The translations under genes and the position numbers were made by a program. This document shows positions 52,063 to 53,970 of a stretch of 64,000 nt of DNA, piece after piece. The stretch lies in NCBI RefSeq assembly GCF_900176115.1, contig NZ_FWWR01000017.1, forward strand, positions 62,001-126,000. The letters run 5' to 3'. How positions within the stretch are numbered: the first letter of the stretch is position 1; each line of letters begins with the position of its first letter. This DNA is from Peptoniphilus asaccharolyticus DSM 20463. Lineage in GTDB: Bacteria; Bacillota; Clostridia; Tissierellales; Peptoniphilaceae. The notes under the pieces are model-generated. The model worked only from the letters and a program-made list of their open reading frames with translations, searched no databases and was not told where the DNA came from.

Positions 52063-52327
52063 ATTTCACCTCGTATTTTAAATAATCAACTTTGCAACTT
52101 ATACCAAAATAAACAGTTTCATAAACCCTTAATTACATGATAAATAAAAAAATTAGAAAATACAAATTTAAAATCAAAATGTATAAAAGAAGTCCAAAAA
52201 TAGCTTAAATAGCAATTGTGTTAGAGAAAATTTTAAACAACAAATGAAAACGTCTTTTCATAAGTTGCAAGATGAAACAGGTTTAAGAATTTCAGCAAAA
52301 AAATTTAAAAAAAAATTATGAAAAGGC

Positions 52328-52446
52328 TTGCAAAATATTTAAAGAGATGTTATTATCATATTGTAAATATCCTACGGAAGGATATTTCAATCATCTTTTT
52401 TCTTCCCAGCTATACATAAAAGGACATCCAGAAGGATGTCTTTTTG
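52328..52446 (+). ncRNA. Candidate small RNA with promoter and terminator
   Basis: A promoter TTGCAA (52328-52333), 17-base spacer, TATTAT (52351-52356) would start RNA near 52363. Two hairpins follow: AAATATCCT/AGGATATTT (52365-52387) and GACATCC/GGATGTC (52423-52440, loop AGAA), the second followed by TTTTT. That predicts an RNA of about 84 bases, with no open frame of note. It sits in a 468-base gap between two minus-strand genes, so it cannot be a leader of either. The rest of the gap (52063-52327) is AT-rich with nothing recognised. Confidence 0.5.
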
Positions 52447-52486: not shown

Positions 52487-52518
52487 AATTAAGAGGGCGC
52501 CTATGAGCGCCCTTAATT
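52487..52518 (-). terminator. Terminator of birA
   Basis: AATTAAGAGGGCGC (52487-52500) pairs with GCGCCCTTAATT (52507-52518) with a two-base bulge; on the minus strand it is followed by TTTTAAC. Confidence 0.72.
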
Positions 52519-52530
52519 GTATTAAAAATA

Positions 52531-53502
52531 TTAAAATTGTCCTCTTACAGAAACTTCGCCGGAAGATAAGGTCATTATATTTCCGTCGTCGGTTTCCACG
52601 ATTAAATTACCTTTTTCATTTATATCCTTTGCAATGGCTTCGTATTTAACTCCATTTAATTCAAAATTCACATATCTACCAAGCAGAAGAGAATGGGATT
52701 TGTATTCTTCCAATATTTCTTCATCGCTTCTACAGTATAGAGATTTATAAAATTCATTTATAACCTCTGCAACAAGTTGAGATCTAAGTAGGTCTTCGGC
52801 AAGTAAAGAGCCGGCTATAGGGCTTAATTCGCCAGTGAATTCAGTAGTGAAATTTATACCTATGCCTGTGACTATGGAGCGTACTTTTTTGGATTCAAAG
52901 TCTATGTCAGCCTCTGTAAGTATGCCACATATTTTTCTGTGGTTTAAGAAAATGTCATTAACCCACTTTATTTCAGGTTTTTTATCTGTAGTTTTTTCAA
53001 TTGCCTTAACTATAGATACGGCAGCTTTTATAGTAACTAAATCAAATGAATTGTATGAAAAATTATCTTTCGGAAAGAATATTATTGAGAAGTACACGCC
53101 GGTGCCTTTTGGAGAGGTGAAACTCTTGCCACGGCGTCCACGTCCAGCGGTTTGTTCATCTGAAACGAGGATTGTAAAATTTGAAAGCTCTTCGGAGTTG
53201 AGAAGGCGTTTAGCCTCTGTGTTGGTGGAGTCTATGGTATTATACACTCTTACATCACTTTCTTTTATCTCTTTGTCTAAGTAGTTGATAATGGCCCACT
53301 TGTCCAATTTATCTGATAAGTCGTCTAATTTATAACCTCTGTTTGTAACAGAGCTAATACTATGGCCATCGCTTTTTAAATTTTTAACAGCTTTCCAAAC
53401 GGCTGTCCTTGAGATACCAAGTTCCGTCGCTATGTTTTCTCCGGATATGTGAGTATCTCTATTTTCTTCAAGAATTTTTAAAACTTTATCTTTAGTTGAC
53501 AT
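52531..53502 (-). CDS. birA: Bifunctional biotin ligase and biotin repressor
   Basis: 323 aa, the full-length BirA with an N-terminal winged helix (about 1-60; ISGENIATELGISRTAVWKA) and a ligase domain. The biotinyl-AMP loop is GRGRRGKSF (about 114-122) and KWVNDIFL contains the catalytic-region lysine; an SH3-like C-terminal domain ends the protein. It attaches biotin to carboxylase subunits and represses biotin uptake or synthesis genes. No biotin gene lies in the window. Confidence 0.94.
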   Translation of the reverse strand: MSTKDKVLKILEENRDTHISGENIATELGISRTAVWKAVKNLKSDGHSISSVTNRGYKLDDLSDKLDKWAIINYLDKEIKESDVRVYNTIDSTNTEAKRLLNSEELSNFTILVSDEQTAGRGRRGKSFTSPKGTGVYFSIIFFPKDNFSYNSFDLVTIKAAVSIVKAIEKTTDKKPEIKWVNDIFLNHRKICGILTEADIDFESKKVRSIVTGIGINFTTEFTGELSPIAGSLLAEDLLRSQLVAEVINEFYKSLYCRSDEEILEEYKSHSLLLGRYVNFELNGVKYEAIAKDINEKGNLIVETDDGNIMTLSSGEVSVRGQF

Positions 53503-53608: not shown

Positions 53609-53700
53609 GGAGAGATGGTCGAGCTGGTTTAAGGCGCGTGCCTGGAAAGTGCGTATGCCCCATAAAGGCATCGGGGGTTCGAATCCCCCTCTCTCCGCCA
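53609..53700 (+). tRNA. tRNA-Ser (GGA anticodon)
   Basis: 92 bases with encoded CCA. Acceptor GGAGAGA pairs with TCTCTCC. The anticodon loop is CTGGAAA flanked by CGTGC and GTGCG, giving anticodon GGA. The long variable arm (TATGCCCCATAAAGGCAT) is the class II feature of serine tRNAs, and the T arm is GGGGG-TTCGAAT-CCCCC. Confidence 0.96.
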
Positions 53701-53970
53701 TCCATGATAGACGGGGAATTAGCGATGCCTTGTAACCTGCGATTCGCTATAGCAGGGTTGAATTCCCGTCTGAGGATTTTTGTTTGTATAGCCTGCCCCA
53801 AGCAAGTGGCGGTGACGACAGGGTCCCATACAATGTATACTTGTGAATCGTGTCAGGTCTTGACGGAAGCAGCACTAAGCAAGCTCATGCGTGTGTTATG
53901 GGGGTGCCTTATCTGAGTTAACTACTTGGGTACCGTATATGAACAATCATTCGAGGGCGGGTTCATGGTA
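53701..53970 (+). ncRNA. ffs: Signal recognition particle RNA, large Firmicute type
   Basis: The segment resembles the B. subtilis scRNA along its length. The Alu-domain part GACGGGGAATTAGCGATGCC is near the 5' end, GTGGCGGTGACG lies in the middle, and the helix 8 region is GTCAGGTCTTGACGGAAGC then AGCACTAAG (53852-53878). Its ends pair, CCATGA (53702-53707) with TCATGG (53963-53968). The apical loop is UGAC (53861-53864), a URRC type and not the common GNRA. It begins directly after the CCA of tRNA-Ser. Confidence 0.92.

Follow-up and report, generated by a model that had tools for sequence, protein, structure and literature searches.

Several small RNAs of the Firmicutes, among them LhrC, RsaE/RoxS and FsrA, have an unpaired pyrimidine stretch that is thought to cover ribosome sites. 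LhrC is multicopy (PMC4132741). In the csRNAs of streptococci, an unpaired region between two stem-loops is complementary to both the Shine-Dalgarno (SD) sequence and the AUG start codon, and the last hairpin is the terminator (PMC3091779). As described there, csRNAs have predicted sizes of 51-202 nt, a conserved nonamer similar to [A/C]UCCUAAA[A/C] is absent from a few of them, and an Hfq substitute is only supposed (PMC3091779). An earlier note on the window, the 64,000-nt stretch of DNA analyzed here, had described a promoter, two hairpins and a terminator defining an RNA of about 84 bases, located in a gap where both neighbors are transcribed from the other strand. The parts of this RNA were borne out by the sequence and predicted fold at this place and by conserved parts in 25 genomes, and the neighbors, a nitroreductase gene and a gene of the birA type, are indeed both on the minus strand. 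We conclude that a genuine gene for a small regulatory RNA very probably occupies 52328-52446 of the plus strand.

The promoter of this gene (52328-52356, plus strand, as are all parts of the RNA gene) consists of a -35 element (TTGCAA, 52328-52333), a 17-nt spacer and an extended -10 element, TGT-TATTAT, with TATTAT at 52351-52356. With the start placed according to the -10 element, the predicted RNA is about 84 nt long (52363-52446). It begins with a 5′ hairpin obtained by fold prediction (52365-52387), with a stem that relatives also form from other sequences, followed by a nearly invariant unpaired core, AUCAUCUUUUUUCUUCCC (52390-52407), whose complement, GGGAAG-AAAAAAG-AUG-AU, reads as an SD sequence, a spacer and a start codon. 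A linker, AGCUAUACAU (52408-52417), leads to the intrinsic terminator (52418-52446), a hairpin of 12 pairs (52418-52445) plus a U run that was recognized by folding and by covariation. The whole unpaired stretch between the hairpins is AUCAUCUUUUUUCUUCCCAG (52390-52409); CUAUACAU comes next, and then the terminator hairpin. Folding of 85 nt gave -24.5 kcal/mol (z of -4.9), a stability equaled by none of 200 shuffled sequences. The locus has features of an independent small RNA gene, namely its own promoter and terminator and a conserved RNA structure.

Taken alone, the promoter match in the window was at chance level (9 matches found versus 6.8 expected in 1.8 kb of this AT-rich region), as it would be if a promoter-like site and a terminator had come together by chance with no RNA gene present. 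A terminator scan of the window reported the stem at 52418-52445 on the minus strand only. However, the parts are conserved in 25 genomes, the promoters score above all shuffles and the terminator stem covaries, so that coincidence is a most improbable account. Because core and promoter are conserved over 25 members, we accept the RNA gene despite the chance-level promoter match in the window. A mechanical 100-aa open reading frame starting at 52347 raises the further thought that the RNA encodes a small peptide, but this frame opens within the promoter, ahead of the predicted transcript start, and runs through the terminator, while the core has no ATG and the hairpins vary in sequence and length between members. 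We regard a peptide-coding function as hardly credible.

Promoter, 5′ hairpin, core and terminator were found in the same order in 25 of 130 genomes of the family. All 25 belong to five genera that include Peptoniphilus and Anaerosphaera species and comprise 28 genomes in total. Members were present in two of three genomes of the window's own genus (g1), four of five of g8, all four of g13, 13 of 14 of g22 and both of g25. They were gathered by a core pattern search of the 130 family genomes with the flanks viewed (47 of 51 places) and by a covariance model, R1, based on six members. The earlier note had named a lack of conservation as grounds for rejecting the RNA; instead, 25 genomes have kept the parts, with compensatory changes in the terminator stem. 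As for the carrier-genus genomes without the RNA, a run of N covers its place in the third g1 genome (G001; L121, upstream of the nitroreductase gene), either an assembly gap or a withheld stretch, so that its absence there is no evidence of loss, and the fifth g8 genome is 76% complete.

Of 61 relatives searched at the DNA level, seven gave a match. Those in the genome itself, G002, G009 and G026 were clear; the matches in G018, G032 and G042 were short stretches without the RNA. In the 130 family genomes, 11 matches to model R1 were strong (E below 1e-7), and a search of 249 genomes of the order gave the identical 11. All 15 weak R1 matches within the family were viewed: one (G014) was real and has an inserted T, one (G004) was doubtful and was not counted, and the others were noise. 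Outside the family, eight weak matches were viewed, and no relative was present among the matches inspected elsewhere in the order. Since R1 misses the second subtype described below, the bare core was also searched in the 249 genomes with up to one mismatch, which yielded 140 places, 24 of them members; the non-member places that were viewed (37 of 116, including all seven exact ones) lacked the promoter-hairpin-terminator context. Likewise, the remaining core-pattern matches viewed in the family were without promoter, hairpin and terminator and were apparently coding. A core scan of genome contigs returned 23 matches, 17 of them in Peptoniphilus, two in Anaerosphaera and four elsewhere; the named species among the members fall in g8, g22 and g25. 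Six of the 19 Peptoniphilus and Anaerosphaera matches were viewed directly, and the four others, from a Lachnospiraceae, a Syntrophomonadaceae, a Chryseobacterium and a Metabacillus, were dropped as lacking the promoter-hairpin-terminator context. The core pattern was absent from the viral contigs searched, and the plasmid collection held no match to the RNA gene of the window. In genus g3, a doubtful diverged relative was observed (L101, about 1500-1555), in which TATCATCTTGTAATTCTTCCC is followed by a terminator-like hairpin; it was not counted as a member.

Mean pairwise identity of the 18-nt core among the 25 members was 95.8% (ungapped), against 48.4% (-30..-1), 42.4% (-60..-31), 34.4% (-160..-131), 40.9% (+3..+33) and 30.8% (+100..+130) in the flanks of the same members. 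Nineteen members have the identical core ATCATCTTTTTTCTTCCC, three have a T at the third place, two have a T at the sixteenth, and one combines a T at the third place with an inserted T; no member has more than two changes. In 22 of 25 members the core was predicted to be fully unpaired, the exceptions being G101 (12 of 18 positions), G026 (17 of 18) and G023 (11 of 18). Judged by these sequences, the core is under strong selection, and it is kept more exactly than a loose anti-SD seed requires.

The 5′ hairpin, in turn, is built from unlike sequences (for example AAATATCC/GGATATTT and GAGGTTTAG/CTAAACCTC, or GAAGT-GAAA-ACTTC in g22) and is weak in g13 (-2.4 in G150, -5.5 in G151, -5.0 in G152 and -2.7 in G014). 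In the terminator stem, both sides have changed in 7 of 11 pairs among 12 first-subtype members (alignment A6), 89.2% of stem cells were paired compared with 76.6% in shuffles, and the covariation score of 0.426 (0.189 in shuffles) was reached by none of 500, slid controls giving 0.094-0.157. A6, on which the covariation count rests, was fitted to model R1 and thus leans towards the R1 structure. RNAalifold on a MAFFT alignment (A2) returned no structure because the stems are misaligned there. The second subtype (g22) has no linker, and its UACAU, which in the window forms part of the linker, is found within the terminator loop; most other members have this motif directly before the hairpin. 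The motif is therefore kept while its place moves.

Upstream of the core, the highest-scoring promoter pair reached 8-12 of 12 in the 25 members (mean 9.84), while 200 shuffles of these stretches gave at most 8.2; for the 12 members outside g22 the mean was 8.58, and all 12 have a TG before the -10 element. The spacer is 17 nt in 24 of 25 members. In g22, all 13 second-subtype members have a 14-bp palindrome, TGAAAATATTTTCA, just upstream of the -35 element, and 11 of the 13 have a similar site, at most two mismatches away from TGAAAATATATTCATAA, on the nitroreductase side of the gap. With the promoter palindrome invariant and a related site on the nitroreductase side, the RNA gene and the nitroreductase gene probably answer to one regulator in this genus. 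The palindrome TATGAAAATATTTTCATA was also seen at two other promoters (L296, about 1500-1520; L305, about 1502-1520), namely that of a gene resembling YifB/ComM in G143 and, in G137, that of a 93-aa gene with what looks like an endonuclease III gene behind it. These sites may point to a small regulon.

Neighboring genes were compared in 24 members, G014 being left out. The nitroreductase gene (PF00881; 51544-52062, minus strand, divergent) lies close to the RNA gene in 21 of 24. In 17 of these (G146 included) it is the immediate, divergent neighbor; in two (G098 and G101) it is one to two genes away, and in two (G026 and G149) it is upstream on the same strand. It is not in the neighborhood in the other three (G150-G152). 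That the nitroreductase is not strictly required is seen in g13, where the RNA occurs although the nitroreductase relatives are only distant ones. G145, the g22 genome lacking the RNA, has no close nitroreductase relative either. In G146, the nitroreductase beside the RNA (L045, about 1944-2881) was matched in separated pieces only, and the gene may be interrupted. The earlier label of "orphan" therefore has to be qualified, given a nitroreductase gene near the RNA in 21 of the 24 members examined. On the other side, a BirA-type biotin-protein ligase gene (52531-53502, minus strand, convergent) lies downstream, and 7 of 24 members have such a gene close to the RNA. Between it and the RNA gene is a strong, GC-rich hairpin (52493-52514) with a terminator-like score on both strands, probably the birA terminator on the minus strand. 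Further along (53609-53968, plus strand), a tRNA-Ser is directly followed by the large bacterial SRP RNA; in L050, too, a tRNA stands next to this SRP RNA.

These neighborhoods bear on whether the transcript acts in cis, as leader or attenuator of the gene that follows on its strand. Attenuators also combine hairpins with a terminator, and Rfam gave a weak match to Phe_leader (17.5 bits; gathering score 55). However, the downstream gene in the window is on the opposite strand, and among relatives neither the next gene itself nor its strand or distance is constant; this argues against a leader and for action in trans. The minimum-energy folds also contain no competing antiterminator, and we consider a leader very unlikely.

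The earlier note had further suggested that the pyrimidine-rich tract pairs with ribosome sites, and had called for target prediction. When the core complement (18 nt, up to two mismatches) was searched in 15 carriers, the RNA gene itself was recovered in 15 of 15, as a single copy in each, together with 14 other matches, four of which appear to fall on the ATG of a frame at least 190 aa long. Three of these near-complete complements are at likely start sites, one each in G026 (an M20 peptidase), G009 (argininosuccinate synthase) and G141 (a second nitroreductase-family gene). At the start of the G026 M20 peptidase, 17 of 18 positions are paired counting G-U, with -24.9 kcal/mol. A match in another M20 peptidase gene (L073) was set aside as a start-site target; it is probably intragenic, given a better start upstream. 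None of the 14 matches represents a target common to any two genomes, and the two M20 peptidases of G026 are the only pair of related proteins among them. Relatives of the M20 peptidases were sought in 14 genomes, and 30 of the 37 listed matches, from 12 carriers, were used. Their start regions averaged 12.6 pairs (n = 30), compared with 11.8 for the background of 528 start regions (p = 0.014; p = 0.27 for energies), and do not keep the match, as 16 or more pairs were found in 1 of 30 versus 4 of 528.

A looser seed, GGGAAGA followed by 2-8 nt and ATG, had 237 matches in six genomes, compared with 112 for the reversed pattern. Seed matches were examined in G000 (31 of 31, RNA gene included), G009 (45 of 46, RNA gene apart) and G137 (33 of 34 listed, of 44), and these had no true target in common. 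The sole match common to the examined genomes is in a gene that we take to be rpoB from its N-terminus; it was rejected as a target, the motif reading as coding sequence. For 56 window genes, mean duplex energies of the core were -10.7 kcal/mol with start regions and -8.4 kcal/mol with coding stretches (p = 0.0002). An at least equal preference was seen with 156 of 200 letter-shuffled cores, and the preference of the core does not exceed what its composition would produce. Taken together, pairing of the tract with ribosome sites stands as plausible and is better framed as anti-SD plus anti-AUG, though no conserved target was found; target prediction yielded three single-genome start-site candidates, none of them common to genomes. 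Action at ribosome sites is what we infer from the form of the RNA and a few single-species candidates.

Both the length of the core and the exactness of its conservation go beyond what an anti-SD seed requires, and no conserved mRNA target was found; one may suppose instead that the RNA is real and that its core is a protein- or ribosome-binding site, the RNA sequestering or guiding a protein or mimicking the 3′ tail of 16S rRNA. A protein site or 16S mimic would account better for such exact retention of 18 nt. We know of no protein that binds the core, and the three single-genome start sites with a near-complete complement fit pairing instead. As to mimicry, the core region matches GGATCACCTCCTTTCTAAGGA, which we take to be the 16S rRNA 3′ tail and which is present in three of four genomes, at 12 positions without gaps. 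This resemblance is weak, however: 245 of 20,000 shuffles did equally well, and core and tail are both pyrimidine-rich. Overall, we hold a protein- or ribosome-binding core to be possible but rather unlikely. The more specific proposal, in which the core mimics the tail (AUCACCUCCUUUCU versus AUCAUCUUUUUUCU) and would act on general translation initiation or a tail-reading factor, with a regulator shared with the nitroreductase and no recognizable Hfq, seems improbable to us.

The best explanation, which we rate somewhat better than even, is that this stand-alone chromosomal gene encodes a trans-acting, Hfq-independent RNA of about 84 nt directed against ribosome sites; the core complements SD, spacer and AUG in the order of the streptococcal csRNAs, which is the reason for reading it so. 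In such a scheme, the 5′ hairpin would protect the 5′ end of the RNA, and the terminator hairpin would end the transcript and protect its 3′ end. The exposed core, CAUCUUUUUUCUUCCC, would pair with translation start regions of mRNAs (a GGGAAG-like SD sequence, a spacer and AUG) and thereby could block the ribosome without Hfq. In g22, the RNA gene and the nitroreductase gene would be under common control. Hfq (PF17209) was found in none of seven carriers searched, and the same search was positive in 5 of 14 control genomes.

Comparison with described small RNAs was made at several levels. Rfam gave no family at gathering score for the window RNA or for the loci of ten relatives, and a literature search (titles and the starts of abstracts) brought up no small RNA of Peptoniphilus or Anaerosphaera among the matches listed. 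The csRNA covariance model had no match at gathering score; at E up to 10, it scored 18.2 bits (gathering score 57), on the opposite strand only. The csRNA nonamer ([AC]TCCTAAA) is present in none of the 25 members. The CiaR repeat, TTTAAG-N5-TTTAAG, did not occur in 52250-52360 with up to two mismatches (26 occurrences in the window versus 33 expected by chance), and among 348 loci the exact repeat turned up at one, where it lies well away from the RNA gene. The RNA fits none of the described families searched and would be a new family of a known kind of small RNA. Its nearly invariant core in five genera offers a handle on RNA-based control in human-associated anaerobic cocci.

Like LhrC, RsaE/RoxS and FsrA, this RNA has an unpaired pyrimidine stretch; unlike the multicopy LhrC, its gene is single-copy in each of the 15 carriers searched. 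Like the CiaR-controlled csRNAs of Streptococcus (Rfam RF02379), it bears an unpaired core of anti-AUG then anti-SD sequence between two stem-loops, but the core is a different one and the bacteria belong to a different order. If the proposed reading is true, it would represent a separate csRNA-type design, anti-SD plus anti-start codon, outside the streptococci, which would suggest convergent evolution.
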